The notes below the pieces were generated by a model, which saw only the letters and a program-made list of their open reading frames with translations, was not told where the DNA came from and made no database searches. This document shows, one piece after another, positions 5,246 to 51,567 of a stretch of DNA of 64,000 bases. Every line of letters starts with the position of its first letter. The stretch's first letter is position 1. Both the position numbers and the translations under genes were made by a program. The stretch lies in NCBI GenBank assembly GCA_013151965.1, contig JAADHF010000042.1, forward strand, positions 27,426-91,425, written 5' to 3'. This DNA is from Spirochaetota bacterium. GTDB lineage: Bacteria > Spirochaetota > Spirochaetia > SZUA-6.

Positions 5246-5265
5246 CAGATATTGTGCATCTCTAC

Positions 5266-5294
5266 TTGATTCTTTATTAATTGTCTGTTATATT
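5266..5294 (+). promoter_or_regulatory. Putative sigma-70 promoter after rpoC
   Basis: TTGATT at 5266-5271 and TATATT at 5289-5294 are separated by exactly 17 bases, a good vegetative promoter match, in the 246-bp gap between rpoC and rpsL. It would let the str/S10 genes be transcribed independently of rpoBC. It leaves a leader of nearly 200 nt that contains a GC-rich stretch and a second promoter-like site. Seen as a sequence match only. Confidence 0.5.
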
Positions 5295-5421
5295 CTAACG
5301 AATCGGGGGGGGGCGGCCGGCGGAAGACCGGTGTGCTGGATGATTTATTCAGTATAAAAGTGTTGGTTTAAAATCAGTACTTTCATTTTTTCAACCTGTT
5401 GTAGAAATTTGTATAATAGGC

Positions 5422-5450
5422 TTGACTTTTTTTTAATCTATTGATAGATT
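5422..5450 (+). promoter_or_regulatory. Putative promoter with palindrome upstream of rpsL
   Basis: TTGACT at 5422-5427 and TAGATT at 5445-5450 are spaced by 17 bases. A perfect inverted repeat, AATCTAT-TG-ATAGATT (5435-5450), covers the -10 element, and a related half-site TCTATCA occurs at about 5464-5470. This layout fits a promoter with an overlapping operator. It could equally be a small hairpin in a longer leader. The rpsL start codon is 42 bases downstream. Confidence 0.45.
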
Positions 5451-5491
5451 TTCGTTTCACATAGTCTATCAGATGGGAGATTTGTGTTTAT

Positions 5492-5866
5492 ATGCCAACT
5501 ATAAATCAGTTGATAAGAAAAGGCAGAAAGAAGATTATAAAGAAAACAAAGGCGCCCGCGCTGCAGGGTTGTCCTCAAAAACGCGGAGTATGCACAAGGG
5601 TTATGACCATAACGCCCAAGAAGCCTAATTCCGCATTAAGGAAGGTTGCAAGGGTGAGGTTGTCGAATGGTATTGAGGTTACGGCATATATTCCCGGCAT
5701 CGGGCATAATCTGCAGGAGCACTCGGTAGTGCTGATAAGAGGGGGCAGGGTAAAGGATCTGCCTGGTGTGAGATATCATATCGTACGTGGTGCTAAAGAT
5801 ACCCTCGGGGTCGAGGATAGAAAAAAGAGCAGGTCGAAGTACGGTACCAAGAAGCCGAAGGCGTAA
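5492..5866 (+). CDS. rpsL: 30S ribosomal protein S12
   Basis: Complete 124-residue S12, the decoding-centre protein of the small subunit. The conserved segments [11 protein letters not shown] and [13 protein letters not shown] are intact. K43 and K88 are the wild-type residues found in streptomycin-sensitive ribosomes, and D89 is the usual methylthiolation position. A GGGAGA element lies about 11 bases before the ATG. It is the first gene of the str cluster (rpsL-rpsG-fusA-tuf), 14 bp ahead of rpsG. Confidence 0.98.
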
Positions 5867-5880
5867 ACGAGGAAATATAT

Positions 5881-6351
5881 ATGCCAAGACGAAGGGTAGT
5901 TCAGAAAAAAGTCGTATATCCGGATCCGAAGTACAGGAGTGCTGTCCTTTCCAAATTCATTACCAGAATGATGTACTCCGGAAAGAAGGCTATTGCAACG
6001 AGGATTGTTTACGATGCATTTAAGGCTATAGAAGAAAAATTAAAAAAGGAACCTCTGGAGGTTTTTTTAAAAGCATTGGAAAATGTTAAGCCCATTGTCG
6101 AGGTAAAATCGCGAAGAGTGGGCGGGTCGACATACCAGGTTCCTGTAGAAATACGGGACAGCAGGCGGGATGCACTGGCTATGAGGTGGATTATACAGTT
6201 CGCACGTAAGAGAAGCGGCAAGTCCATGAGTACGAAGCTGTCTGCAGAGTTGATGGATGCGTATAATTCTACGGGTGCATCATTTAAAAAGAAAGAGGAC
6301 ACCCATCGAATGGCTGAGGCTAATAAAGCCTTTGCTCATTATAGATGGTAG
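5881..6351 (+). CDS. rpsG: 30S ribosomal protein S7
   Basis: Complete 156-residue S7, the 16S rRNA 3'-domain assembly initiator. It begins with the canonical MPRRR and keeps the conserved [11 protein letters not shown] and [15 protein letters not shown] segments. A GAGGA ribosome-binding site precedes the ATG. It sits between rpsL and fusA, as in most bacteria. In E. coli S7 represses its own operon at the rpsL-rpsG junction; the 14-bp junction here is too short for a similar structure. Confidence 0.98.
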
Positions 6352-6363
6352 TTGTTTTTGGAT

Positions 6364-8445
6364 ATGGCTACGCGGTTTCCTCTAAAGAAAATCCGCAATA
6401 TCGGGATCATGGCGCATATAGACGCCGGGAAAACGACTACGACGGAGCGGATTCTCTACTATACAGGCAGAACACATAAGATTGGTGAGGTTCATGAAGG
6501 TGATACCGAAATGGACTGGATGGAACTTGAAAAAGAACGGGGCATAACGATAACAGCTGCTGCGACTTCCTGTTCCTGGAAAGATCACCAGATAAATATA
6601 ATAGATACACCAGGGCATGTGGATTTCACGGTCGAGGTGGAACGATCTTTGAGAGTATTAGACGGAGCAATAGGGGTTTTCTGTGCTGTTGCAGGAGTGG
6701 AACCTCAAAGCGAGACCGTATGGAAGCAGGCGAATAAGTACAAGGTTCCCAGGCTTGTTTTTATCAATAAGATGGATCGGGTCGGGGCGAGGTTTTACGG
6801 CGTTGTGGAGGAACTCGGGAGCCGGTTAGGGGCGAATGCCCTGGTTGTCCAGATTCCCATAGGAAGCGAGAGCAAATTCAAGGGTGTTGTGGATCTTATA
6901 AAGATGCGGGCTTTTGTGTGGGAAGATGACGGGTCCGGTGCCGAGTATATCGAAGGTGAAATACCCGAAGAAATGAAGAATGAGGCGGAAGAAAAACGCG
7001 TGGAGCTTCTTGAAAAGCTTTCCGAACAGGATGATCTCTTTATGGAAGAGTATCTTGAGGGAATTGAGATTTCCGGAGAAAGAATAAAAGAGGTGCTGCG
7101 GGCGGCTTGCATTGATAGTACGCTTTTTCCCGTACTTTGCGGGACGGCTTTTAAGAACAAGGGTGTTCAGCTGCTGCTTGATGCGGTTGTGGATTATCTG
7201 CCTTCGCCGGTTGATATTCCTGCGATAACCGGAATACTGCCGAACACGGGTGATTACATAGAACGTGAGCCTTCGGATGACAGTGCTTTTTCGGCATTGG
7301 CCTTTAAGATTATGTCCGATCCTTATGTGGGGAAACTAACATTTTTCAGGGTTTATTCGGGCAGCCTGAAAAGCGGCAGTTATATTTATAACTCGACTGC
7401 CGATCGAAGAGAGCGTGTTTCCAGGATATTAAGGATGCATGCAAACGACAGAGAAGAGATTGGTGAGGTTCATACGGGTGATATTGCCGCTTTAGTGGGA
7501 TTAAAGAAGACTACAACGGGCGATACGCTCTGTGATATGGATAATCAAATAATTCTTGAGTCCATGGTTTTTCCGGAGCCGGTTGTCTCTATTGCTATCG
7601 AGCCCAAGACGAAGTCAGATTCCGATAAATTAATGGGAGCGCTGCAGAAGCTCTCCGAAGAGGATCCGACTTTTAAAGTCCGCTATGATCATGAAACGGG
7701 CCAGACTATAATATCCGGAATGGGGGAACTTCATCTTGAGGTTCTTGTAGAGAGGCTTTTACGGGAGTTCAAGGTAGAGGCCAGTGTCGGCAAACCGGAG
7801 GTGGCATATCGTGAGACGATTATGGGTTCTGCCAAAGCGGAAGGGAAGTTTGTAAAGCAGTCAGGCGGACACGGACAGTATGGTCACGTTGTGATGAGGT
7901 TCGAATCGCTGCCGCCCGGAACGGGATTCCTCTTTGAGAGTAAGGTTGTCGGAGGCAGGGTTCCAAAGGAATATATACCTGCTGTTCAGAAAGGAATAGA
8001 AGAGGCCAGAGACAACGGTGTGCTTGCCGGATATCCTGTTGTGGATTTCAGGGCGACACTGCTCGACGGCTCGTATCATGATGTTGATTCAAGCGAAATG
8101 GCTTTTAAGGTAGCAGCTTCGCTTGCATACAGGAATGGGCTTAGGAAAGCTAAACCAACTATCCTGGAACCGATTATGTCTGTGGAGGTTAATGCTCCCG
8201 AAGAGTATCTTGGGGAAGTTATTTCCAATTTCAGTGCAAGAATGGGACATGTGGAAGGTATAGAAGATCGGTATGGTGGTAAGGTAGCTAAGGCACTTGT
8301 GCCTTTACGAATGATGTTCGGATATACTACCGTTCTCCGCTCCATGACAAAGGGGCGGGCAACTCATACCATGCAGTTTTCTCACTACCAGTCAGTTCCC
8401 AAATCGGTGCAGGAAGAGATAGTAGCGAAGGTTAGGGGAAAATAA
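6364..8445 (+). CDS. fusA: Elongation factor G
   Basis: Translocase GTPase of about 693 residues. The P-loop AHIDAGKTT is at residues 17-25, followed by the switch segment [12 protein letters not shown] and NKMD. Domain IV/V sequence continues to the C-terminus ([10 protein letters not shown], then [19 protein letters not shown]). I place the start at ATG 6364, giving [12 protein letters not shown], because it matches family N-termini. A TTG at 6352, directly after the rpsG stop, is in frame and would add four residues. Neither start has a strong Shine-Dalgarno, so translation may be coupled to rpsG. Confidence 0.97.
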
Positions 8446-8526
8446 AGATAAAATCCTCTATGCCTTAAAGTAAGCATAATAATGTGCTATATGTTTTGAA
8501 TTGCGTTTCAAAGCAAGGAGGAAGAA

Positions 8527-9717
8527 ATGGCAAAGGCAAAGTTTGAAAGGACCAAACCGCATATTAATGTAGGTACGATAGGTCATGTCGATCATGGGAA
8601 AACAACTCTTACGGCAGCAATTACCATGTACTGTGCAAAAAGTTTTGGTGATAAAGTGATGAAGTATGAGGATATAGATAATGCGCCGGAGGAGAAGTCG
8701 AGAGGTATTACTATTAATACCAGGCATGTTGAATATCAGACGGAGAATAGGCACTATGCCCATGTAGACTGTCCGGGACACGCTGATTACATTAAAAATA
8801 TGATAACCGGTGCCGCGCAGATGGATGGTGCTATTTTGGTAGTATCCGCCCCTGATTCGGTGATGCCGCAGACAAGAGAGCATATACTGCTTGCACGTCA
8901 GGTTGGTGTACCGTCTATAATTGTTTACCTCAATAAGACAGATCAGGTTGACGATCCCGAATTGATCGAACTCGTGGAAGAGGAAATTCGTGATGTCTTA
9001 AAGGAATATGAATTTCCCGGAGATGAAATTCCTATTATTAAGGGTTCCGCTCTCCAGGCCATGGAAAATCCGGATGATCCGGAAAAGATTAAATCTGTTA
9101 TTGAGCTTCTTAAAGCCATGGACGAGTATGTTCCTCTGCCTGAAAGGCCCATTGATAAGCCTTTCCTGATGCCAATAGAGGATGTTTTCTCCATATCCGG
9201 GCGTGGTACGGTTGTGACCGGAAGAGTTGACCGGGGAAAAGTCAAAGTCGGCGAAGAGGTGGAAATTGTCGGCATCAAGCCCACAAGGAAAACTGTTGTA
9301 ACCGGTGTGGAAATGTTTAATAAAATACTGGATGAAGGACTTGCCGGTGATAATATCGGTACTCTTTTAAGGGGTGTCGACAAGAAGGAAGTAGAAAGAG
9401 GACAGGTAGTTGCCAAACCGGGCAGCATTACTCCTCATAGGAAATTCAAAAGCAGAGTTTATATACTGACAGGAGATGAAGGCGGAAGACATTCTCCGTT
9501 CTTTGCAGGTTACAGGCCGCAGTTTTATTTCAGAACAACGGATGTTACCGGCAGCGTTTCACTTCCCGAAGACAAGCAGATGGTTATGCCGGGAGATACG
9601 GTTGAACTTACCGTAGAATTAATTTCGACAATAGCTATTGAAAAAGGTTTAAGGTTTGCTATTCGTGAGGGTGGAAGAACTGTCGGCGCGGGAGCCGTTA
9701 CGGAAATTATTGAATAA
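8527..9717 (+). CDS. tuf: Elongation factor Tu
   Basis: Complete 396-residue EF-Tu, which delivers aminoacyl-tRNA to the ribosome. The P-loop GHVDHGKT is at residues 19-26, with RGITI and DCPGHADY following. The G4 motif reads NKTD where many bacteria have NKCD. The C-terminal domains include [21 protein letters not shown] strong AAGGAGGAAGAA ribosome-binding site precedes the ATG, consistent with very high expression. A perfect hairpin with a T-run follows the stop, so tuf probably ends a transcription unit or sits at a partial terminator. Confidence 0.98.
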
Positions 9718-9722
9718 ATTAT

Positions 9723-9753
9723 GCTCCTGCATTACAAAATGCAGGAGCTTTTT
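9723..9753 (+). terminator. Intrinsic terminator between tuf and rpsJ
   Basis: GCTCCTGCATT (9723-9733) and AATGCAGGAGC (9738-9748) form a perfect 11-bp stem with the four-base loop ACAA, followed by TTTTT (9749-9753). This is a textbook rho-independent terminator. It lies only 14 bases before the rpsJ start codon, so no separate promoter fits between it and the S10 operon. Readthrough, attenuation or a promoter inside tuf must therefore feed the downstream genes. Confidence 0.85.
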
Positions 9754-9767
9754 CAGGGAGTTTATAC

Positions 9768-10076
9768 ATGACAGGGGATAGGATACGTGTTAGGTTGCGT
9801 GGTTTTGATGTGGAACTTATAGATCAGAGTGCAAAATCGATTGTCGAGACGGTGTTAAAAGCCGGGTCTAAGATATCGGGACCTATTCCTCTGCCTACAA
9901 AGATAAACAAATATACAGTTCTGCGGTCTCCGCATGTCAATAAAAAGTCGCGGGAACAGTTTGAAATGAGAACCCATAAGAGATTAATAGATATAATCGA
10001 ACCTACAAAGGATGTTATGGATGCACTTATGAAACTGGAGTTACCTGCAGGTGTTGATGTAGAAATAAAGCAGTAA
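9768..10076 (+). CDS. rpsJ: 30S ribosomal protein S10 (NusE)
   Basis: Complete 102-residue S10, first gene of the S10 operon and also the antitermination partner of NusB. The sequence keeps the signature [20 protein letters not shown] and the C-terminal [17 protein letters not shown] ribosome-binding site lies directly after the tuf terminator hairpin, so folding of that hairpin in a readthrough transcript would sit next to the initiation region. rplC follows after 10 bp. Confidence 0.98.
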
Positions 10077-10086
10077 GGAAAAAGCA

Positions 10087-10707
10087 ATGTTGGCATTAAT
10101 GGCAGATAAAATAGGAATGACACAGGTTTTTGATGAAAACGGTATACTTATCCCTGTTACGGTAATCCATGTGGAACCGAATCTGGTTGTGGGTGAAAGA
10201 AAACAGAAAAAACACGGCTATGATGCAGTCATCCTGGGTGTGGAAAAGGTAAAAGAAAACAAGGTTTCCAAACCGTATGCAGGCCAGTTTCCCGGTGATG
10301 CGGGGATAAGAAAACACATTCTGGAGATAAGGGATTTTGAAAAAGAGTATAGGATAGGTGAAGAGCTTAGTGTTGCTGTATTTGAAGGCATAAGATATTT
10401 AGATGTTCGCGGGATCAGCAAAGGTAAAGGATATCAGGGTGTCATGAAACGTCATGGTTTCAGCGGCGGCCAAAAAACGCATGGTTCCAAATTCCACAGG
10501 GCGGGAGGATCTACCGGACAGGCTGCCTGGCCTTCCAAGGTTTTTAAAGGCACAAAGATGGCGGGAAGAATGGGCGGTGTTAAAAGAACCATTCAGAATT
10601 TAAGAGTCCTGCGTGTTGATAAAGATAAAAATATTATTCTTCTGCAGGGTTCGGTACCCGGTAGAAATAAAAGCAAAGTGCTTTTAATGAAATCAAAGAA
10701 AAAATAG
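10087..10707 (+). CDS. rplC: 50S ribosomal protein L3
   Basis: Complete 206-residue L3, an early 23S assembly protein that reaches the peptidyl-transferase centre. The motif GGSTGQ places the usual methylated glutamine at Q145. The ATG at 10087 ([13 protein letters not shown]) follows an AAGGAA element. A second in-frame ATG four codons later matches the family's usual start position, so the first four residues are uncertain. It is part of the S10 operon between rpsJ and rplD. Confidence 0.97.
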
Positions 10708-10716
10708 AGGATCCGT

Positions 10717-11343
10717 ATGAAAACTCAGGTTTTGGGGTTAGATGGCAGTGTATTACGAGAAATAGAACTATCGGATAGTGTATTTAGTGTGGATATAAGC
10801 GAAGGCTCTATTTATCATGCCGTAAGGAATGAGCTTGCTAATTTAAGACAGGGAACCGCTTCCACAAAAACCAGAAGTGAAGTTCGGGGAAGCGGAGCTA
10901 AACCCTGGCGGCAGAAAGGAACCGGAAGGGCGCGTTCGGGAAGCAGAAAATCTCCTGTATGGGTAGGAGGCGGAACGGTTTTCGGTCCAAAGCCCCGTGA
11001 TTATAGTTATAAACTGCCTAGAAAAATAAAGAGACTGGCGGTAAGGTCGGTTCTATCGCTTAAATTAAAAGATAAGGTCTTAAAGATAATTGAAGATTTT
11101 ACGGTAGAAAGCGGAAAGACGAAGGATCTGCTTAAGATAGTGAGCGGTTTTGTTCCGGATGAACGTACAATACTGGTGCTTAAAGATAATGATAAGATGG
11201 TGAAAAGATCAGGAGGAAATGTGCCGTGGCTTCGTTTTCTCTCTTTTGACAGATTAAGGGTGCATGATCTTTTTTACTGCAGGCATCTTTTGCTGATGGA
11301 ATCCGCTGCGAAAAGTTTAAATGATTTCTATGCTTCGAATTAA
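10717..11343 (+). CDS. rplD: 50S ribosomal protein L4
   Basis: Complete 208-residue L4. The long internal loop that lines the exit tunnel is recognisable (the segment with PWRQKGTGRARSGS), followed by FGPKPRDYSYKLPRK. In E. coli L4 represses its own S10 operon by attenuation in the leader; here the only comparable structure is the hairpin between tuf and rpsJ. A GAGGA ribosome-binding site precedes the ATG. The C-terminus has a divergent PWLRFLSFDRLRVHDL segment of family type. Confidence 0.97.
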   Translation: MKTQVLGLDGSVLREIELSDSVFSVDISEGSIYHAVRNELANLRQGTASTKTRSEVRGSGAKPWRQKGTGRARSGSRKSPVWVGGGTVFGPKPRDYSYKLPRKIKRLAVRSVLSLKLKDKVLKIIEDFTVESGKTKDLLKIVSGFVPDERTILVLKDNDKMVKRSGGNVPWLRFLSFDRLRVHDLFYCRHLLLMESAAKSLNDFYASN

Positions 11344-11360
11344 ACGGAAGAGGTTAAATA

Positions 11361-11645
11361 ATGAATGCTGATCAGATTATCATAGAGCCTGTTGTTACTG
11401 AAAAGACAAATATAATGAGGGAATCGCATAAGTATGCATTTAAGGTAAACCGTGGTGCAAATAAGTATCAGGTAATGCTGGCAGTCAACGAACTTTTTGA
11501 TGTGCATCCATTGAAATGCAATATTGTTAATGTTTCAAGAAAACCGAAACGTGTACGTTACAGGCTGGGATATACTGCTGTATGGAAAAAAGCTGTTGTA
11601 ACTCTTCCTCCGGGAGAGATTATCCCGATTTTCGAGGGCGCATAG
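11361..11645 (+). CDS. rplW: 50S ribosomal protein L23
   Basis: Complete 94-residue L23, the tunnel-exit protein that docks trigger factor and SRP. It opens with IIEPVVTEKTN, the family signature, and has the conserved F.V...ANKYQV segment. It lies between rplD and rplB with short spacers (17 and 12 bp), the standard S10 operon order. No unusual features were seen. Confidence 0.97.
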   Translation: MNADQIIIEPVVTEKTNIMRESHKYAFKVNRGANKYQVMLAVNELFDVHPLKCNIVNVSRKPKRVRYRLGYTAVWKKAVVTLPPGEIIPIFEGA

Positions 11646-11657
11646 GGAGTTAAAGTA

Positions 11658-12482
11658 ATGGGAATTAAGAAATACAAACCGGTTACTGCCGGAACCAGAT
11701 TTAAGACAGGCTTGACATTCGAGGAGATAACGAAAGATAAACCCGAAAAATCTTTAACAAAAGGGTCCGCTTTCAGTTCCGGCCGGGATGGTGCAGGAAG
11801 GATCAGTGTGCGAAGGAGAGGCGGCGGACACAAAAGAAGATATCGTGTTGTTGATTTTAGAAGGGGTAAGACCGGTGTACCCGGAAAGGTAGCCGCTATA
11901 GAGTACGATCCTAATAGAAGTGCTAATATCGCGTTAATCAATTATGCAGACGGCGAAAAGTGTTATATTATTGCCCCGGAAGGGCTAAGTGTCGGTTCTA
12001 CCGTTTTAAGCGGACCCGATGCACCTTTGGAAGTCGGAAATGCGCTGCCATTGGAGCGGATACCTCTTGGAATGATTGTTCATAATATTGAATTACAGCT
12101 TGGGAAGGGCGGGCAGTTAGCAAGGTCTGCGGGTACCGGAGCATCGATTGCAGCAAAAGAGGGCGACTATGTAACGCTTAAACTACCGTCCGGTGAGATG
12201 AGAATGGTGTTTAAAAAATGTTATGCAACGCTTGGGACTGTTGGTAATGAGGAGCATATGAATGTTACCCTGGGAAAAGCGGGGCGTGCAAGATGGCTGG
12301 GCAGAAGACCGAAGGTTCGGGGCGTTGCCATGAACCCTCACGATCATCCTCACGGCGGCGGTGAGGGTAAGTCGTCCGGAGGGAGACATCCTGTTTCTCC
12401 GACGGGTGTTCCCACAAAAGGTTATAAAACACGGAAGAAGCGCAAGCTTTCCAGTAAATTTATTGTTAAGAGAAGAAAATAG
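11658..12482 (+). CDS. rplB: 50S ribosomal protein L2
   Basis: Complete 274-residue L2, required for subunit association and peptidyl-transferase centre assembly. The C-terminal segment [17 protein letters not shown] carries the histidine (residue 232 here, His229 in E. coli) implicated in peptidyl-transferase function. The position before DHPHGG is His where most bacteria have Val. The C-terminus is strongly basic. The ribosome-binding site is GGGAG. Confidence 0.98.
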
Positions 12483-12491
12483 GAGAAGCGA

Positions 12492-12773
12492 GTGTCTAGA
12501 TCGGTAAAGAAAGGACCTTTTATTGCAAAAAGCCTGTATAAAAAGGTCCTGGATATGAATAAAAGCGGTGAAAAAAGGATGATAAAAACCTATTCGAGGT
12601 GTTCGACAGTCATCCCTGAAATGGTTGGTTTTACTATTTCTGTTTATAATGGTAAAACCTGGATTCCTGTGTATGTTACAGAGAACCTTGTCGGCCACAA
12701 GCTCGGTGAGTTTTCACCAACAAGGATTTTCAGAGGACATGCAGGATCGGATAAAAAGGCTTCTAAAAGGTAA
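12492..12773 (+). CDS. rpsS: 30S ribosomal protein S19
   Basis: Complete 93-residue S19 of the 30S head, starting at GTG 12492 with [10 protein letters not shown] and preceded by AGGAG, which decides the GTG start. Conserved blocks include IPEMVGFT and [10 protein letters not shown]. It sits between rplB and rplV as expected in the S10 operon. Confidence 0.97.
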
Positions 12774-12785
12774 CAGGTGATGGTT

Positions 12786-13136
12786 ATGGAAATAAAGAAG
12801 GGTTATCAGGCCCACGCAAGGTATTTAAGGGTGTCACCGACAAAGGTGAGAAGAGTTGCGGATATCATAAGAAAAAAACCCTACGGAGAGGCTGTTGCGA
12901 TTCTTGATTCTTTGCCTCATAAAGGTGCCCGTTTTTTAAAGAAGGTTATTAAATCCGCTGCTGCAAATGCTCTGTATAACAACAAGAAACTTGATGAAGA
13001 AATGCTGTATATAAAAGATTTGCAGGTAAACGGAGGGCCTACTATGAAGAGGGTATGGCCGAGGGCCCGCGGCAGGGCTGACAGGCTTTTAAAAAGATCA
13101 TGCCACATTTCCGTGGTATTGGACGAAATTAGTTAA
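12786..13136 (+). CDS. rplV: 50S ribosomal protein L22
   Basis: About 116-residue L22, which contributes the extended loop of the nascent-peptide tunnel. Recognisable blocks are [18 protein letters not shown] and [16 protein letters not shown]. Three in-frame starts lie close together: GTG 12777, ATG 12780 and ATG 12786. I prefer 12786 because AGGTGA sits five bases upstream and the N-terminus then reads [11 protein letters not shown]. The alternatives would add two or three residues and would abut the rpsS stop. Confidence 0.95.
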
Positions 13137-13149
13137 TCTGGGGGATATT

Positions 13150-13851
13150 GTGGGACAAAAGGTTAATCCGATTGGTTTAAGGCTTGGAATTAATAAAACA
13201 TGGAAATCAAAATGGTTTGTTGATCCCAGGGAGTATGCTTCGACTCTGCATGAAGATCTTCGTATACGGGAAGCGATTATGAACGGTCGTTTTGCACGCG
13301 GAGCAGATATTGCTGATTTGGAGATCGTCCGGCATCCCCAAAAGGTTACTGTAATAATACATACCGGGCGGCCTGGTGTGGTAATAGGTGCCAAAGGCGC
13401 GAATATAGAGAAACTTGGCGGTGAGCTTCAGAAGATAGTCGGCAAGAAGATTCAGCTTAAAATTAAAGAGATTAAAAGGCCGGAAATTAATGCGCAATTA
13501 ATTGCAGAGAATGTCGCCAGGCAGCTGCGAGCACGTTCCTCGTACAGAAGGGCTATGAAAATGGCAATAAGTAATGCCAGAAAAGCAGGTGTCGAGGGGA
13601 TAAAGATAAAGATAGCCGGCAGGCTCGGCGGTTCCGAGATGGCCAGAAGGGAAGAGTATAAGGAAGGAAGAATTCCGCTTCATACTTTTAGAGCTGATAT
13701 TGATTATGGTTTTACGGCGGCTATTACAACATTCGGTTCGATTGGTGTTAAAGTCTGGATATTTAACGGTGAAGTTTACGGCAGGGAAAAGAAAGAGGAT
13801 GCGGGAAGGCTGATAAAGAAGCAGAAGAACGGAAGTACGTCGAGGAGATAG
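13150..13851 (+). CDS. rpsC: 30S ribosomal protein S3
   Basis: Complete 233-residue S3 at the mRNA entry channel. It starts at GTG 13150 ([13 protein letters not shown], the canonical N-terminus) behind GGGGG. The KH domain carries the GAKG loop within [13 protein letters not shown]. The C-terminal domain has the [11 protein letters not shown] and [11 protein letters not shown] blocks. A lysine-rich tail ([14 protein letters not shown]) extends the C-terminus. Confidence 0.97.
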
Positions 13852-13857
13852 GATACA

Positions 13858-14274
13858 ATGCTTAGTCCGAAAAGAACGAAATACAGGAAAAAACAGCGCG
13901 GCAGGATGAAAGGGGCGGCAACACGCGGCAATAAAATCTCTTTCGGAGATTTTGCACTTATTGCACTGGAAAGAAAGTGGATAACCAACAGGCAGATAGA
14001 AGCCGCAAGGGTTGCAATGACGCGTCATATCAAAAGGGGCGGAAAAGTATGGATAAGGATCTTTCCCGATGTGCCGTATACAAAAAAACCCGCAGAAACA
14101 AGGATGGGAAAAGGGAAGGGTAATCCGGAGTATTGGGTTGCCGTTGTTAAACCGGGTTCTGTCATGTTCGAAATTGCCGGTGTGGAACCGGGTCTTGCTG
14201 AAGAAGCGATGCATCTTGCCGGAAGCAAGCTTCCTATTAAAACTAAATTCATGGTAAGAAGGGATCTGAGGTAG
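13858..14274 (+). CDS. rplP: 50S ribosomal protein L16
   Basis: Complete 138-residue L16, which lines the A/P-site tRNA region of the 50S subunit. It begins [17 protein letters not shown] and has the signature [21 protein letters not shown], where the conserved arginine lies. It follows rpsC by 6 bp and precedes rpmC by 4 bp, as expected in the S10 operon. Confidence 0.97.
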
Positions 14275-14278
14275 TAAA

Positions 14279-14479
14279 ATGAAAGATTCATTTAAAGATT
14301 TAGCGTATAATGAGCTTCTGACAAAACGTGAAGAATTAAAAAAACAGTATCGTGATTTAAGGTTTAATGTAGTGATCGGGCATGTTGATAATCCTCTGGA
14401 AAAGAGGACGCTTCGTAAAAAATTAGCACGGATTAATACAATAATTCATGAATATGAACTTGGAATCAGAAAAGTTTAG
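14279..14479 (+). CDS. rpmC: 50S ribosomal protein L29
   Basis: Short 66-residue L29, a two-helix protein near the tunnel exit next to L23. The conserved features are the N-terminal helix with [18 protein letters not shown] and the C-terminal [11 protein letters not shown]. The family is 60-70 residues, so it is full length. The start is 4 bp after the rplP stop, so translation is probably coupled. Confidence 0.95.
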
Positions 14480-14488
14480 GAGAAAGCT

Positions 14489-14740
14489 GTGGAGGGTAAC
14501 AAGAAAATATTTACCGGGAAAGTGGTAAGTAATAAAATGGATAAAACGGTTGTAGTGGAGATAAGCAGAAGGAAGCTTCATAAATTGTACAAGAAGTATA
14601 TCACCAGGTCTAAGAAGGTTAAGGCTCATGATGCGAAAAATGAATGTAATATCGGTGATACTGTCAGAATAATTGAATCCAGGCCGCTGAGTAAGGACAA
14701 ACATTGGCGCCTTCTGGAAATTGTAGAGAGAGCTAAATAG
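14489..14740 (+). CDS. rpsQ: 30S ribosomal protein S17
   Basis: Complete 83-residue S17, an OB-fold assembly protein of the 30S body. Family blocks are [18 protein letters not shown] and the C-terminal [21 protein letters not shown]. The start is GTG 14489 behind TAGGAGAAAGCT; no ATG upstream of the conserved block is available. It is the last gene of the classical S10 operon before the spc genes. Confidence 0.96.
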
Positions 14741-14761
14741 GGAATATGTCGGGGGAGCATT

Positions 14762-15130
14762 ATGATACAGATGAATACATACTTAAATGTTGCAGACAAC
14801 AGCGGTGCAAAACGCGTGCAATGTATAAAAGTTTTAGGTGGGACAAGGCGGAAATACGCCGGAGTCGGAGATATTATTGTGGTTGCTGTTAAAGATGCTC
14901 TTCCGAATGCAGCAATTAAAAAGGGAACAATAGAGCGGGCTGTTATCGTGAGAACCAGTAAAGAGTATAGAAGACCGGATGGAACTTATATAAGGTTTGA
15001 TGATAATGCATGTGTAATAATAGATCCGGGTAGAAATCCGAAGGGAAAGAGAATATTCGGACCTGTTGCAAGAGAGTTAAGGGAGAAAGATTACATGAAA
15101 ATAATTTCTCTGGCCCCGGAGGTTCTCTAG
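14762..15130 (+). CDS. rplN: 50S ribosomal protein L14
   Basis: Complete 122-residue L14 at the subunit interface, the docking point for RsfS. It begins [27 protein letters not shown], closely matching the family, and keeps the [12 protein letters not shown] and [11 protein letters not shown] blocks. It is the first gene of the spc operon, 21 bp after rpsQ with a GGGGGAG ribosome-binding site. Confidence 0.98.
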
Positions 15131-44833: not shown

Positions 44834-44863
44834 ATAAATAAGTTTTCCATGGGGAGGGGAACA

Positions 44864-47800
44864 ATGTTCACAATAGGGAATTTAATAACCTTTTTAACGG
44901 TTTTATTAATCTTACTCATATATAGACAGATTGATAAAGGTAACAGATCCTTAGAGAAGGTAAAAAAATATTCGGACAGGGTAGTACAGAATTTATCTAA
45001 ATTTGTAGATGAAAAAACAGCGAAGTTAAAAGATCTTTCTATTGAACTTCAGGTAAATCTTAAAACAGGCAAAGATATATTAAACCGCGTACATGAAGTG
45101 GAACAGGGGTTAAACGAACGTTCCGATGATATTGTAAAAATAGAGCACCGGTTAACGGAGTATGATAGTGTTCTTAAGGAACTCATACGAATGACAGCGC
45201 GTGTCGATGAAAATATGAAGAGAATTCGTGAAGAATCACAGTTTATCGACGGCGTTAACAAACGTATAAAGGATTTGAGTGTTCAGGTAATAAAGCTGGA
45301 AAAGTCTGTTCCGTTAATTACAACGAGAATCGAGGATTATAATAGAAAGGAACTGGAGACTATCCGTGATGAACTTACATCCGGAATAACGGATAGAATC
45401 GATGAGATTAAAAGTATTATAGATAAGTCGGAGCATAAGGTTAAAGATTTCTCTGTGTATATTACAAAACTGGAGGCCAGAAAAGACGAGCTTCAGCGGA
45501 GTGCAGTAGAAAATCTTAAAAAGAATTTTGAAAGTTTCGAACTGGAAGCAAAAGGTAAAAAGTCGGGACTTATGTCGGAATTTCTGGCATCGATAAAGAA
45601 AATTTTAGGTGATGTCGAGGAGAAGGGGAAGGCGTTTACCAAAAAGCTCGAATATATGCTTGTGACTGCAGAGAAAAAATACCTCGCAATGGATGAGAAT
45701 TTTAGAACAGGTATAGCCGGAATCGATGAAACTTACAGTGATAAAATAGAAGAGAAAAGAGAACAGCTGCTGGAAGTTATCAGAAAGGGTGAATCTCTCG
45801 AGGATGCTGTTTTTTCACAGATAAAGGAAAAAATCAGCAGTAATGAGACTGCTGTATCTGCAAGACTCGATGATTTCCGGAATAATTTTATATCTATGTT
45901 CGAAACGGCGGAGAGCAGGCTTGCCGACTATGAAGGAGAAGTGGATTACCGTTTCCGCAAGCTTGAAGATGTTAATGTGGATATAGAGGCGCTTGATAAA
46001 AATCTTCGGGGTGTAATGGAACGTATGACAGAAAAAATAAAGGGTGACCTGGATACTTTCTCCAGATATCTCGAGGAGAGAAGAAAGGAAGAACGTCTTA
46101 AGGCGGAAGAAGAGATGTCTGTAATCAGAGAGGGTATGTCAGAGCTGGATAAAGGTCTGTCCGAATTAAAGTCCAGGGCATACCAGGATGTATCGGAAAA
46201 ACTGCAGGTTTTTGAAGACGGATTCTTTAAGGATCTACAGGAGCGCAGTATAAATATAGAAGAAAAGCTAAAGAGATGGCAGGAGGATATAGGTTCCAGG
46301 ATAGGTGAGATAGAAACCGTACATATATCAGAAAGGGAAAGGATAGAAGAAACATACGGCAATGATTTAAAAGCAAAGCTTGAAGAGCTTAAAAGTTCGG
46401 CTGCCGTAGAATTCACCGGCATGGAGAGACAGGTTGAGGAATTCGAGAACAGTCTTAAAGGCAGAATATCTACAGCGGAAGATACTGTTTCCTCTCTCGG
46501 TTCCGCTTTAAGAAATGAAGTGGAGAAAGCGAAAAATGACTCCATGGAGCTGTTCAGCCGTGAGATGAACCTTTTAAAACAGTCACTGGATGAGGATGCT
46601 GCAAGAGTACGAAAGGATATGGAATTAAAATTCAGAGAGCTGGGAGGAAGTATAGATATTGAGAAGCAGGAGGTATCGGAGCTTTTAAGGACAACGAGAG
46701 AGGATGTTACCGTATGGCAGTCAAAAATACTTCAGGAGATGAATGAATCGAAAGCCGGATTAACGGAAAAGGTCGAGTCTTTTAAAGAAGATGTAAACTC
46801 TACAATCGAGAACATAAAAACAGAGTTTACCTCTCAGCGTGATGATCTTATAGTATCCACAAATGAAGAACGGTTAAATCTAAAAAATGAGCTTGGTGAT
46901 ATATCGGAAAGAATAGTGCATCTGAAAGGAGAACTGGATAAAAAAACGGAAAGCTCAATGTCGGATTTAAAGAAAAGTCTGGAAGGTTTTGAAATAAGTT
47001 TCCGGAGAAAGATAAACGACTTTAACGGAGAGGTGGATAGAAAAGTAAAAGATTTTAAACTGCTGCTTAATGATGTTAGGGAAAAAACAGAAGCGATGCA
47101 GCAGAAACTTTTCGGAAAGGTTGAGGAAAATTATAAGATCCTCTCTGTAAATCTGACGGGAATAGAGAGACGGCTTAAAGATTTTACCTCTCAGACAAAG
47201 ATATTCGAAAGAGCGGATAACTTAAAACTTGCCCTGACAGCTGATATCGAAGGACTTAAAAGCGAGATTGCACATTTAAAAGCCCGGAAAAGAGAAATTG
47301 ATGAAATAGAGACTCAGGTAGGCAGGACCCGAAAGGTCAGTGAAGAGGTCTCGATTAAATTTAACCGCTTTTTAAACGAGAAGAGAAGAATCGAAGCAAT
47401 GGAGGGAGACTTTAAGAAACTTCTGAACATATCGAAGGATATCGATGTAAAGTTAGAAAATGTTACGATGAGTCATGATACATTACAGGAGATACAGGCA
47501 AGGATCCGCTCACTTGAAGAACTTGAAAAAGTGGTGGAGTCAAGGTTTAACAGGCTTGAGAATAAAAAAGAGATAATTGAGAGTACGATCGACGGGGTTG
47601 ATAAAAACTTTGAGAGACTTGAAGAACTGGAAAAGGCAATTAAGAATAACAAAGATGGTCTTTCGGAATTTACGGAAAACTTAGAAGAACTTAAAACCGA
47701 ACTGGAAGTTCTTGCGGAAAACAAGGACAAAGCGGATGCAGTTGTGGAGATGATCGGATCGATCGACGGCATTCTTGGTGATCTGGTAAAACGTATGGAT

Positions 47801-48073
47801 AAAATGCAGAAGGCGAGAGAGTGGCTTGCTAAGACCGAGACGAGGCTCGAGGATATCGGGCGTCAGGCACAGGAACAGGTGCGTCTTTTAGAGAGCCTGA
47901 TTAAGGAAGAAGTTAAAGATAAAAAAGCAGAGAGGGGGGCGCCGCCTCTCGATAAAAGGGAAACCGTAGTAAAACTTTCTCACCAGGGATGGTCGGTTCC
48001 GGAAATTGCAAAAGCTACCAGGCTGAGCAGGGGAGAGGTGGAGCTTATCCTGGAAATAGCCCCGAAAACTTAA
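44864..48073 (+). CDS. Very long coiled-coil protein with C-terminal HTH (SpiroCoCo-like)
   Basis: About 1069 residues from ATG 44864, chosen because GGGGAGGGG lies just upstream; an in-frame ATG at 44849 would add five residues. An N-terminal membrane helix (ITFLTVLLILLIYR) anchors an almost continuous Glu/Lys-rich coiled coil from about 25 to 1020. The last 40 residues, beginning RETVVKLSHQGWSVPEIAK, form a helix-turn-helix-like domain. The layout matches the family known as SpiroCoCo in spirochaetes, whose function is not established to my knowledge. It resembles an envelope-anchored filament or cytoskeletal tether. Confidence 0.85.
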   Translation: MFTIGNLITFLTVLLILLIYRQIDKGNRSLEKVKKYSDRVVQNLSKFVDEKTAKLKDLSIELQVNLKTGKDILNRVHEVEQGLNERSDDIVKIEHRLTEYDSVLKELIRMTARVDENMKRIREESQFIDGVNKRIKDLSVQVIKLEKSVPLITTRIEDYNRKELETIRDELTSGITDRIDEIKSIIDKSEHKVKDFSVYITKLEARKDELQRSAVENLKKNFESFELEAKGKKSGLMSEFLASIKKILGDVEEKGKAFTKKLEYMLVTAEKKYLAMDENFRTGIAGIDETYSDKIEEKREQLLEVIRKGESLEDAVFSQIKEKISSNETAVSARLDDFRNNFISMFETAESRLADYEGEVDYRFRKLEDVNVDIEALDKNLRGVMERMTEKIKGDLDTFSRYLEERRKEERLKAEEEMSVIREGMSELDKGLSELKSRAYQDVSEKLQVFEDGFFKDLQERSINIEEKLKRWQEDIGSRIGEIETVHISERERIEETYGNDLKAKLEELKSSAAVEFTGMERQVEEFENSLKGRISTAEDTVSSLGSALRNEVEKAKNDSMELFSREMNLLKQSLDEDAARVRKDMELKFRELGGSIDIEKQEVSELLRTTREDVTVWQSKILQEMNESKAGLTEKVESFKEDVNSTIENIKTEFTSQRDDLIVSTNEERLNLKNELGDISERIVHLKGELDKKTESSMSDLKKSLEGFEISFRRKINDFNGEVDRKVKDFKLLLNDVREKTEAMQQKLFGKVEENYKILSVNLTGIERRLKDFTSQTKIFERADNLKLALTADIEGLKSEIAHLKARKREIDEIETQVGRTRKVSEEVSIKFNRFLNEKRRIEAMEGDFKKLLNISKDIDVKLENVTMSHDTLQEIQARIRSLEELEKVVESRFNRLENKKEIIESTIDGVDKNFERLEELEKAIKNNKDGLSEFTENLEELKTELEVLAENKDKADAVVEMIGSIDGILGDLVKRMDKMQKAREWLAKTETRLEDIGRQAQEQVRLLESLIKEEVKDKKAERGAPPLDKRETVVKLSHQGWSVPEIAKATRLSRGEVELILEIAPKT

Positions 48074-48158: not shown

Positions 48159-48187
48159 TTGACTTTTCGATGACGATTTATTAAATT
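48159..48187 (+). promoter_or_regulatory. Putative promoter of the fluoride riboswitch
   Basis: TTGACT at 48159-48164 and TAAATT at 48182-48187 are separated by 17 bases. The expected start site near 48194 falls just before the first aptamer base, exactly where a riboswitch leader should begin. Confidence 0.6.
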
Positions 48188-48195
48188 GTTAATTG

Positions 48196-48320
48196 ATATC
48201 GGGGATGGAGTCCCCCGGATTAAATGTACCGGCCGTACTGATGACTCCTACTGTGCAGTTTTCTGTAGCGTAGGAGTTGTAAAGATACGGCTAAGCACCC
48301 GCTATAGAGCGGGTTTTTTT
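48196..48320 (+). promoter_or_regulatory. Fluoride riboswitch (crcB RNA) with expression platform
   Basis: The core at 48201-48252 matches the crcB/fluoride aptamer: a GGGG/CCCC stem closing the loop ATGGAGTC, then a GUAC-CGGCC-GUAC hairpin, then the conserved TGATGACTCCTAC. The pseudoknot is perfect: loop GGAGTC (48206-48211) pairs with GACTCC (48243-48248), the fold that encloses fluoride in the known structure. Downstream, GTAGGAGT (48270-48277) can pair with ACTCCTAC (48244-48251), destroying the pseudoknot, and a terminator follows. Fluoride riboswitches generally turn genes on. The genes that follow are MutS-like ATPases rather than crcB or a CLC-F transporter. Confidence 0.88.
48297..48320 (+). 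terminator. Riboswitch-controlled intrinsic terminator
   Basis: ACCCGCT (48297-48303), loop ATAG, AGCGGGT (48308-48314), and a run of seven T to 48320. It lies 45 bases after the aptamer and before the small ORF and MutS-like genes, so it is the likely off-switch of the fluoride riboswitch. GTAGCG at 48265-48270 can pair with the terminator's left arm as a possible antiterminator. Confidence 0.85.
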
Positions 48321-48407
48321 ATACTTGTTTATACACGCTGCCCGTTACTCATTGCACGATGTGAGAAGTCAGATGCGGGAAATCATTAGATAGGGAGGAC
48401 TCCATAT

Positions 48408-48539
48408 ATGCGCCGTGATGCTGTATCTATCCGCTTAAGACCGGCCGACTTTGATAGACCTCTTATCACGAGTAATCGATTACACAGGAGTATACCTTCC
48501 CATAGCATACTATTTGATAGGGAGGTGTTTCGCCTATGA
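48408..48539 (+). CDS. 43-residue small ORF at the head of the MutS-like operon
   Basis: ATG 48408 follows AGGGAGGA by a proper distance and the frame runs 43 codons to TGA 48537-48539. The stop overlaps the ATG of the first MutS-like gene (ATGA), the same coupling seen between the two MutS-like genes. The protein starts MRRDAVSIRLRPADFDRPL, is Arg-rich and lacks a membrane segment or known motif. It could be a small regulator or partner, or a leader peptide coupling translation. No family recognised. Confidence 0.45.
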   Translation: MRRDAVSIRLRPADFDRPLITSNRLHRSIPSHSILFDREVFRL

Positions 48540-50071
48540 CTTTTAACAGTATCCTGTTTAAGAAAATCGACAGCACAATAAAAAAAGAAACACTTGAAAC
48601 ACCCGTTTTTTTTGTTGATTTAAATCTTGATCAGATTATAGAGGCCATTACGGCCGGCAAACAGGAATATAACTTAAAACCGTTTTTTTACACTCCGTTA
48701 AGGGATATTGATACGATCAGCTATCGTCATGAAATCATGCAGGATCTGGAAAATCGAATACTTTTCGGGAATATAGAATCATTTGCGCAAAAAATGCGTA
48801 CAATGCGGGAGCATCTTGCAAGGTCAGACAAACTTTACTATAAATACCAGAAGGAAGGGTGGTTTTTAGATGCAGTGGAGATTTATTGCAGCGCCGTTAA
48901 TGAAATGGTGCACGATTTATTCCTCGTAGATTTAAAATCGCGCGGATTTTTGTCTTTTCGGGAATATTTAAAAGAATATACCGGTTCGGACCGTTTTACT
49001 TCGCTTCTGGCTGAAACTAAAAAGCTTAAAAGCGATTTATCAGAAATTAAATACAGCCTGCTTATAAAGGATAACAGCGTTAAGGTTCGCAAATACGAAT
49101 CTGAAACTGATTACAGTGTCGATGTCGAGGAAACCTTTGCGAAATTCAAACAGGGAGCAGTAAAAAATTATAGGATCGATTTCCACGAAAGCCAGGATAT
49201 GAACCATATCGAAGCACAGATACTGGATTTGGCAGCCAAACTGTATCCTGACGTATTTTTACCTCTCGATGAATATTGCACCAAAAACAGCAGTTATATT
49301 GATGAAACCATAGGAAGTTTTGACAGAGAAATACAATTCTACATATCCTATCTGAATTTCGCTGCAATATTTAAACGGGAGAGGTTGAAATTTTGTTATC
49401 CTGTGATTTCAAATAAGAGTAAAGAGATTTATGATTATGAAGGATTTGATTTAGCCCTGGCCTATAACCTCATTACGGAAGGATCATCCGTTATCTGCAA
49501 TGATTTTTATCTGAAAGATAAAGAGCGTATAATTGTAGTAACAGGCCCGAACCAGGGTGGTAAAACAACCTTTGCCCGTACCTTCGGTCAGTTGCATTAT
49601 CTGGCCGGTATCGGCTGTCCCGTCCCGGGCAGGGAAGCGCAGCTCTTTCTATACGACGGGATTTTTACGCATTTCGAAAAAGAAGAGAACATTAAAAACT
49701 TAAGAGGCAAACTGGAAGATGATCTGGTGAGAATTTATGATATTCTAAACAGCGCGGCATCTGACAGTATTATCATCATGAATGAAATTTTTACATCCAC
49801 AACATTAAAGGATGCCATTTTTCTGAGTAAAAAGGTAATGGAAAGAATAATACAATTGGATTCGCTGTGTGTTCTGGTAACGTTTTTAGATGAATTGTCA
49901 TCTTTTAGTGAAAAAACTGTAAGTATGGTCAGCATGGTAGTGCCCGAAAATCCGGCAGTTCGAACCTATAAAATTGTAAGAAATCCGGCGGACGGGCTTG
50001 CCTACGCGCTGTCTATCGCCGAAAAGTACCGGCTTACATATGATCATTTAAAGAAGCGCATAAAATCATGA
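48536..50071 (+). CDS. MutS-like ATPase, first of a tandem pair
   Basis: A 511-residue protein of the MutS core plus ATPase type. The helical core is followed by the P-loop GPNQGGKTT at residues 337-345. The Walker B region reads SIIIMNEIFTSTTLKDA, with Asn (N416) in place of the usual Asp before Glu417, and STTLKD in place of MutS GRGT. The N-terminal mismatch-recognition domain is absent, so classical mismatch repair is unlikely; related MutS-like families have other or unknown roles. AGGGAGGTG precedes the ATG. It lies downstream of a fluoride riboswitch and overlaps the second MutS-like gene by four bases. Confidence 0.85.
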   Translation: MTFNSILFKKIDSTIKKETLETPVFFVDLNLDQIIEAITAGKQEYNLKPFFYTPLRDIDTISYRHEIMQDLENRILFGNIESFAQKMRTMREHLARSDKLYYKYQKEGWFLDAVEIYCSAVNEMVHDLFLVDLKSRGFLSFREYLKEYTGSDRFTSLLAETKKLKSDLSEIKYSLLIKDNSVKVRKYESETDYSVDVEETFAKFKQGAVKNYRIDFHESQDMNHIEAQILDLAAKLYPDVFLPLDEYCTKNSSYIDETIGSFDREIQFYISYLNFAAIFKRERLKFCYPVISNKSKEIYDYEGFDLALAYNLITEGSSVICNDFYLKDKERIIVVTGPNQGGKTTFARTFGQLHYLAGIGCPVPGREAQLFLYDGIFTHFEKEENIKNLRGKLEDDLVRIYDILNSAASDSIIIMNEIFTSTTLKDAIFLSKKVMERIIQLDSLCVLVTFLDELSSFSEKTVSMVSMVVPENPAVRTYKIVRNPADGLAYALSIAEKYRLTYDHLKKRIKS

Positions 50072-51567
50072 AGGCTTTTCTGATGTATAGGGATCGTGAT
50101 TTTGATCCGGAGCAGACACTTCCTCCGAATGCCGAAGCATTGATGCAGGATCTGGAATTAAACACTTTGTTCAGTGCAATGGCGCTCGAGGATGATTTTT
50201 TGTCCGAAGTGGCAAAGAAGGTTGTTTTAGCGAGTTTAAACAATCCGGACACAATACGGTACCGCCAGGACATTCTTAAGGATTGCCTTAAGAATTCTTC
50301 CGTTGTCAGGGATATTTATGATATTGCGGTGGAATCCAGTGAAAGCAAGAAAAAAAGCTATTATGGTATTTTTAACCGATATCCGGGTGCGATACTCCAT
50401 GGATCGATAGAAATATTACATATTTTTGTTGCCCTGCTGAGGAAACTAAAGAATATAGCCGATGAACATGCAGATAAATTCGAATCGGAGGGTTTTGCAG
50501 CGTTTTTCTCTATGCTGAAAAAGGAGCTTGATGCGGAATATTTTGCCAGGGTACAGCATCATCTTAAGGAACTGAAATTCCGTAATGGAGTTTTGATCAG
50601 TGCCGAATTAGGAAAAGGTAATAAAGGCATCAATTACAAACTCCGTAAACCGCAGGATAATAAATCGAGGTGGTTAAACAGGATCTTTTCCAGGAAACCG
50701 CCCGCTTACACTTTCCGTATCGCCGAGCGCGACGAAAACGGCGCCAGGGCATTATCGGACTTAAGAGACAGGGGAATTAACCTTGTTGCCAATGCACTTG
50801 CCCAGTCTGTTGATCATATTGACAATTTCTTTAACATGCTTCGGACAGAATTGGCCTTTTACATCGGCAGTTTAAATTTACACGAACAATTATCCGGGAT
50901 GGGGGAGCCGGTATCTTTTCCTGTGCCTGCAGCTCTTAAAGAACGCAGACACTCTTTAAAAGGGTTGTACGATATCTGTTTAAGTTTAACAATAAAACAT
51001 AAAATTGTGAGCAATGGTGTTAATGCTGATAATAAAGATCTTGTAATAATCACAGGCACCAATCAGGGTGGTAAATCGACTTTTTTAAGAAGCATAGGTA
51101 TAACTCAATTGATGATGCAATGCGGAATGTTTGTATCTGCCGAGTATTTCTGCGCTAATCTCTGCAATGGTCTTTATACACACTACGGACGTGAAGAAGA
51201 TGTTACTATGAAAAGCGGCAAACTTGACGAGGAGCTTAGCAGAATGAGTGATATAGTAGACAGGATAACGCCCGATTCGATGGTGCTGTTTAATGAGTCA
51301 TTTGCCGCGACTAATGAAAGAGAAGGTTCGGAGATTGCAGGGCAGATAATTAATGCATTAATGGAAGAAGGTATTAAGATTTTCTTTGTTACACATTTAT
51401 ACGAATTTGCAAGTGGTCTTTACGGAAAAAAAATGAAAAATGCTATTTTCCTGAGGGCGGAAAGGCTGACCAATGGAGAAAGAAGTTTTAAAATTATCAA
51501 AGGCGAACCCTTGCAGACCAGTTATGGTGAAGATGTATATAACAAGATATTCCTTACAGACAATTAA
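50068..51567 (+). CDS. MutS-like ATPase, second of a tandem pair
   Basis: A 499-residue homologue of the preceding protein. The P-loop is GTNQGGKST at residues 330-338. The Walker B equivalent is MVLFNESFAATNEREG, with N409 and E410 again replacing the usual Asp-Glu, followed by FFVTHLYEFA. The two proteins diverge substantially, so they may form a heterodimer like MutS paralogues. The start overlaps the upstream stop (ATGA), indicating coupled synthesis. It is convergent with clpB, with only 21 bp between the two stops and no clear terminator. Confidence 0.85.
   Translation: MKAFLMYRDRDFDPEQTLPPNAEALMQDLELNTLFSAMALEDDFLSEVAKKVVLASLNNPDTIRYRQDILKDCLKNSSVVRDIYDIAVESSESKKKSYYGIFNRYPGAILHGSIEILHIFVALLRKLKNIADEHADKFESEGFAAFFSMLKKELDAEYFARVQHHLKELKFRNGVLISAELGKGNKGINYKLRKPQDNKSRWLNRIFSRKPPAYTFRIAERDENGARALSDLRDRGINLVANALAQSVDHIDNFFNMLRTELAFYIGSLNLHEQLSGMGEPVSFPVPAALKERRHSLKGLYDICLSLTIKHKIVSNGVNADNKDLVIITGTNQGGKSTFLRSIGITQLMMQCGMFVSAEYFCANLCNGLYTHYGREEDVTMKSGKLDEELSRMSDIVDRITPDSMVLFNESFAATNEREGSEIAGQIINALMEEGIKIFFVTHLYEFASGLYGKKMKNAIFLRAERLTNGERSFKIIKGEPLQTSYGEDVYNKIFLTDN

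Follow-up and report, generated by a model that had tools for sequence, protein, structure and literature searches.

Introduction

That mutS genes accompany the crcB RNA motif is already known, since mutS was listed among the genes associated with this motif in 2010 (Weinberg 2010, PMC2864571). The passage concerned names mutS once, with no pair, clade or function given, and a DNA-damaging stress was proposed there. Here we describe a fluoride riboswitch and the two adjacent MutS-like genes behind it, called A and B, in a 64,000-nt stretch of a Spirochaetota bacterium genome (contig JAADHF010000042.1; "the window" below), and count how often this arrangement recurs. A sequence-only reading of the window had named mutS-type genes among those associated with fluoride riboswitches, correctly, given the 2010 list. 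Our literature search for the fluoride riboswitch or crcB together with MutS found no paper giving a function for a riboswitch-linked mutS. MutS is not mentioned in the main text of a 2024 review of fluoride resistance (PMC11139923), and an Enterobacter plasmid paper names both mutS and crcB.

Several described systems resemble parts of this locus. In the Bacillus cereus and Thermotoga petrophila switches the base of the terminator is built from the pseudoknot strand (PMC11077080), and in GI3 of Enterobacter cloacae FRM a riboswitch-run set of six genes confers fluoride resistance (PMC5533749). In MutS, the mismatch-binding and connector domains occupy residues 2-266. The Smr nuclease domain is a hallmark of MutS2, and MSH4-MSH5 is a heterodimeric clamp of two unlike subunits having no mismatch domain.

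The fluoride riboswitch and its leader

The fluoride riboswitch (RF01734) is the sole Rfam family above its cut-off when cmscan is run over the whole window. The aptamer occupies positions 48192-48257 of the forward strand (44.8 bits, gathering score 34 bits, E 3.6e-9) and covers model positions 1-64 of 64, so that the well-formed crcB-type aptamer placed by the sequence-only reading at 48190-48260 is borne out by the covariance model. The pseudoknot, claimed to be perfect, indeed has five Watson-Crick pairs between GGAGT (48207-48211) and ACTCC (48244-48248). These pairs are identical in five leaders (the one of the window and four related ones), and across other A loci the two strands covary (for example GAAGC/GCTTC, GAGGC/GCCTC, GGCAT/ATGCC). 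Of the promoter and terminator also attributed to the riboswitch, the terminator is present as a stem of seven pairs (terminator-like stem 48297-48314) followed by a T run (48297-48320). The promoter is a candidate only: TTGACT-17-TAAATT (48159-48187) has 9 of 12 consensus letters, a weak match when taken alone, as 1.4 are expected by chance in the scanned stretch. L083, the nearest relative (A gene 90% identical), has the same letters there.

Folding predicts two separate hairpins in the leader. The free leader folds (-57.9 kcal/mol) into the terminator and an anti-aptamer hairpin (48244-48277), in which ACTCCTAC (48244-48251) pairs with GTAGGAGT (48270-48277) in the minimum-energy fold. The pseudoknot strand ACTCC has alternative partners, the aptamer loop or, within ACTCCTAC, the letters of GTAGGAGT. 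When pairing of positions 48243-48252 is forbidden in a transcript that stops at 48308, CTGTAGCG (48263-48270) pairs with CGCTATAG (48300-48307) on the 5' side of the terminator, forming a predicted antiterminator (48263-48307). In the absence of fluoride the anti-aptamer hairpin would seize the pseudoknot strand and the terminator would form, as predicted from folding; in its presence the pseudoknot would hold, CTGTAGCG would be freed to pair with the terminator 5' side, and transcription would continue into A and B.

The anti-aptamer helix has 8/8 pairs in the window and 7/8 in each of the four related leaders. The antiterminator has 8/8 standard pairs in four of the five aligned leaders (5/8 in L093); in the second copy of the same genome one pair has changed on both sides, from T-A to C-G. 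This conservation of pairing gives modest support to a two-hairpin switch across the five leaders. Unlike the published overlapping platform of B. cereus and T. petrophila, the pseudoknot strand of the window is captured by a hairpin of its own, which is not followed by a T run, while the terminator stands separately. By our criteria the overlapping form occurs in 23 of 55 leaders scanned, the leader of the window not being among them; two-hairpin folding is likewise found in L088 and L114, both from alphaproteobacterial bins.

Association of the riboswitch with A/B genes

The link between the riboswitch and the gene pair recurs within this genome, among its relatives and in distant phyla. The genome of the window has three fluoride riboswitches, two of which head A/B pairs (in the window and at C4). 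The third (L003, 1501-2054) lies 23 bases before a hycD-like open reading frame (ORF) that runs off the contig and clusters with other hycD-like ORFs; at E 1e-10 none of the island proteins matches the MFS protein beside this riboswitch. In a set of 61 genomes, A orthologues were identified in 10, and all 10 have a riboswitch above the cut-off, compared to 11 of the 51 others. Eleven of the 12 A genes of this set lie behind a riboswitch (the G034 gene, split across two contigs, is counted once). Among the other MutS places listed, compared by eye, none is on a contig with a riboswitch match.

The wider set consists of the best 80 of 570 A orthologues confirmed in a scan of genome contigs (54-90% identity), spanning many phyla and including two archaeal bins; three of them are on contigs that belong to the relatives as well, and the leaders of L071 and L073 are almost copies of each other. 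Culturable environmental species carrying the gene include Thermoanaerobacter wiegelii and Paraburkholderia phenazinium. A scan that takes structure into account places an aptamer at most 480 nt upstream of A in 47 of 79 testable loci, at a score that none of 237 shuffles or 158 coding windows attains. With a matrix scan the count is 48 of 79, all scoring higher than any of 948 shuffles and 160 coding windows (a strict regular expression, superseded by these scans, had found 17 of 80). Together with one further model match, the aptamer is within 480 nt upstream in 52 of 80 loci and heads the gene run that contains A in 10 others, with neither arrangement in 18. In seven of these 18 an aptamer lies at another place in the locus, four have less than 545 bases upstream, and L102, L125 and L129 carry aptamer-like letters below the threshold of the matrix scan. 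Rfam, applied to nine loci, confirmed L071, L073, L077 and L080 and gave nothing above the cut-off in L070, L074, L082, L084 and L151. Models R1 and R2, which rest on only six pairs, R2 being built from R1 matches, score true aptamers too low: the L077 aptamer has 18.6 bits with R2 and 43.3 with Rfam. The A gene of this locus, from a Thermotogae bin (9001-10533), is interrupted in frame by a stop after codon 253, and the riboswitch preceding it is above the Rfam cut-off.

Thus the survey of MutS-like pairs for the same upstream RNA, suggested by the sequence-only reading, was positive. Its claim that MutS ATPases without a mismatch domain are under fluoride control is supported as far as recurrence goes, and, judging from sequence, A and B are almost certainly regulated by fluoride through the riboswitch.

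Family and structure of A and B

Gene A (48536-50071, forward strand, 511 amino acids) and gene B (50068-51567, forward strand, 499 amino acids) overlap by ATGA. Both match Pfam MutS_V (74.3 and 77.9 bits, cut-off 30.2) and no other Pfam family above its cut-off; in particular, no Smr domain is matched in either. Their structural models (predicted local distance difference test scores, pLDDT, 85.9 for A and 86.6 for B) cover the MutS core, clamp, lever and ATPase but contain neither a mismatch nor a connector domain; structural alignments to MutS begin at about residue 260. The 43-residue ORF preceding A (48408-48539, forward strand), placed by the sequence-only reading between the riboswitch and the MutS-like genes, is probably not a gene of this unit and was rejected: it has no Pfam or NCBIfam match and is not conserved, falling in a gap of L083. 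A 1074-residue coiled-coil-like protein (44849-48073) ends just upstream of the leader, and a similar ORF of 1069 residues lies upstream of A in L083.

In the tree, A and B fall into two clades of their own, both with Walker-B NE and separate from MutS1, MutS2 and KamC. The tree is based on 94 of 96 rows, B of the window and B of L083 being left out because the search pattern missed their Walker A. The two proteins share the core, clamp, lever and ATPase fold, lacking a mismatch domain, with MutS2, but differ from it in having NE instead of DE, in being two unlike subunits and in their NCBIfam MutS2 scores (68.3 for A and 72.4 for B, cut-off 400 bits). With MutS1 and MSH2-MSH3, for which heterodimers exist according to PDB titles, they also share the ATPase, core, lever and clamp, but the mismatch and connector domains are absent, and the NCBIfam mutS1 scores (68.5 and 73.4 bits) are far below the cut-off of 641.7. 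KamC (NF052383), a MutS-like ATPase of about 500 amino acids, works on an enzyme according to its name; A and B score 51.7 and 67.6 bits with this model, far below its cut-off of 300, while KamC itself groups with MutS2 in the tree (98/96) and keeps the Walker-B DE. Descent from KamC was rejected on these grounds.

A and B, adjacent in the genome, belong to separate clades and probably form a heterodimer. In B the clamp tip is basic (average net charge +4.2) with a conserved GNKG-NY-LRKP motif; in A the clamp carries almost no net charge (+0.4). MutS1 and MutS2 are encoded by genes of their own in this genome. The Walker-B Asn was considered as an adaptation to fluoride, but this is weakened because a sister clade also has NE in 10 of 14 rows (the pattern missed the other four), yet no fluoride riboswitch was found in any of the 10 sister-clade loci searched (17 fetched). 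In other spirochaetes, several stand-alone MutS genes of the NE clade (L195-L206) adjoin an ORF that reads as sigma-factor-like.

Neighbouring genes, islands and plasmids

Neighbours were clustered in 89 loci (92 less three duplicates), all chosen for the presence of A. The names of the dynamin, MFS, exchanger, P-type ATPase and DUF6062 clusters come from Pfam on one or two members, the others from reading. The most frequent clusters are dynamin-like GTPase (26 loci), enolase (25), MFS (22), Na/H exchanger (12) and CrcB (11). Less frequent ones are hydrogenase-type subunits (7 to 11), Usp (10), heavy-metal P-type ATPase (8), DUF6062 (8), DUF190 (7), phosphoglycerate mutase (6) and a mixed cluster with pyrophosphatases (5). 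The 139 riboswitch matches in these loci are followed next by a MutS gene in 44 cases, the dynamin-like gene in 7, enolase in 6 and CrcB in 3. The dynamin-like GTPase (both members scanned match Dynamin_N) is thus directly behind its own aptamer in seven places; examples of the gene are L149 7104-9125, L108 4247-6122, L127 15976-18144 (reverse strand) and L140 282-2457. A literature search for the fluoride riboswitch with dynamin found nothing.

Other ORFs directly behind fluoride aptamers read as glutamine synthetase-like (L086 1565-3091; L117 3902-5814, reverse strand) or as CLC-transporter-like (L105 227-1768; L146 3442-4899). A single 20-kb stretch, L148 (G037:C31), has seven riboswitch model matches (2375-15023), with enolase, hydrogenase-type and A/B genes close by.

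A is present on 45 of 72,556 plasmid records; in a phage collection there was a single A match, with 28% identity. In four plasmid stretches, the aptamer is directly before A in two, heads the gene run in one, and is absent before A in Rhodococcus. On a Klebsiella IncF plasmid (L207, NZ_CP084857.1, 7909-19797), an aptamer-headed antiporter-Usp-A-B run is divergent from an aptamer-headed set of pyrophosphatase, Usp, eno, phosphoglycerate mutase and crcB genes. The pair, between the two riboswitches, is labelled there as DNA mismatch repair protein MutS, and A/B-type genes are annotated as mismatch repair elsewhere too. The second Klebsiella set resembles that of GI3, which differs from the plasmid in that its Table 1 has no MutS gene (PMC5533749).

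The sequence-only reading saw no fluoride exporter near the pair, and this extends beyond the window: neither CrcB (PF02537) nor CLC (PF00654) is matched in the whole genome, which is 94% complete. The loss of exporters as a mark of A/B genomes was considered, but no clear enrichment is observed, as neither protein is above the cut-off in 7 of 10 A/B genomes (this one and six others) and in 26 of 51 others, with fluoride and chloride types of CLC pooled. Other exporters may exist in the genomes without CrcB and CLC.

Proposed function and alternatives

Membership of the pair in a fluoride-defence set, like its riboswitch regulation, is well supported, and a role in fluoride tolerance is, from the sequence evidence, very probable. 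Since the pair recurs beside fluoride-resistance genes across phyla and on plasmids, it likely clears machinery jammed by fluoride rather than repairing mismatches. The role suggested by the sequence-only reading, countering fluoride damage to nucleic acid metabolism or to magnesium-dependent enzymes, is conjectural. The two products would pair into an ATP-gated clamp that, having no mismatch and connector domains, would take hold of something that is not a mispair; the clamp would close when ATP binds, and hydrolysis would free or split the client. Our tentative proposal, held with a little less than even confidence, is that fluoride-induced A/B would act as an accessory tolerance module, a heterodimeric clamp dismantling fluoride-arrested complexes, most likely stalled ribosomes pulled apart in a MutS2-like manner. 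The ribosome is favoured because MutS2, a relative without the mismatch domain, was solved on a collided disome (7qv3); as the specific client it remains doubtful.

Several observations weigh against this proposal. The tree joins A/B with MutS1, not MutS2 (with a long-branch warning), and structural scores are no lower for MSH2 and MutS1 than for MutS2, so nothing singles out ribosomes. Regulation, too, has exceptions: one A gene among the relatives (G046:C88) has no riboswitch, 11 of the 18 loci with neither arrangement have none anywhere in the examined locus, and L082, counted by the scans as direct, is below the Rfam cut-off. The terminator persists in the full-length constrained fold (-39.1 kcal/mol), and the antiterminator therefore must act co-transcriptionally, so that read-through would hinge on timing. 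Finally, the six-gene resistance set of E. cloacae FRM, as tabulated, lacks the A/B pair (PMC5533749).

That set also bears on whether A/B are passengers of mobile stress islands having no role in tolerance, given that it works without them and that A is carried by plasmids. Against this, the aptamer directly precedes A in most loci across phyla, and none of the 10 loci searched in the sister NE clade has a fluoride riboswitch; we consider the passenger status very improbable. A DNA or junction clamp akin to eukaryotic MSH4-MSH5, likely protecting or repairing DNA under fluoride stress, is suggested by the gene names and by the 2010 proposal of DNA-damaging stress (PMC2864571). The engine shared with MutS and MSH2 and the basic, conserved clamp tip of B are consistent with it, but the mismatch and connector domains are absent, the clamp of A has hardly any net charge, and the genome already has MutS1 and MutS2, which makes such a clamp quite improbable. 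A reactivase would open fluoride-poisoned magnesium enzymes, e.g. enolase, and release trapped magnesium-fluoride-phosphate, as the name of KamC implies for lysine 5,6-aminomutase. NCBIfam describes KamC as a MutS-like "reactivase ATPase", A and B match it weakly, and enolase is found in 25 of the 89 islands. However, both scores are far below the cut-off, KamC groups with MutS2 and keeps DE, and enolase is possibly present only because fluoride inhibits it (PMC11139923), so a reactivase seems rather unlikely. A broader form of the dismantling clamp, an exporter-independent defence that strips complexes trapped by magnesium-fluoride-nucleotide from ribosomes or enzymes, with the Walker-B Asn proof against magnesium-fluoride locking, as the main defence in genomes like this one in which neither CrcB nor CLC was found, is improbable.

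Significance

New within the literature searched are the pair itself, its clade and altered active site, the riboswitch link as counted, the two-hairpin platform and the dynamin-like neighbour. The leader would represent a second switching design for this riboswitch class. An obligate-looking pair of non-mismatch clamp ATPases in fluoride islands would be a testable defence system, and the client of the pair would be a fluoride target beyond enolase and pyrophosphatase; were the exporter-independent form true, A/B would found a separate kind of fluoride defence.

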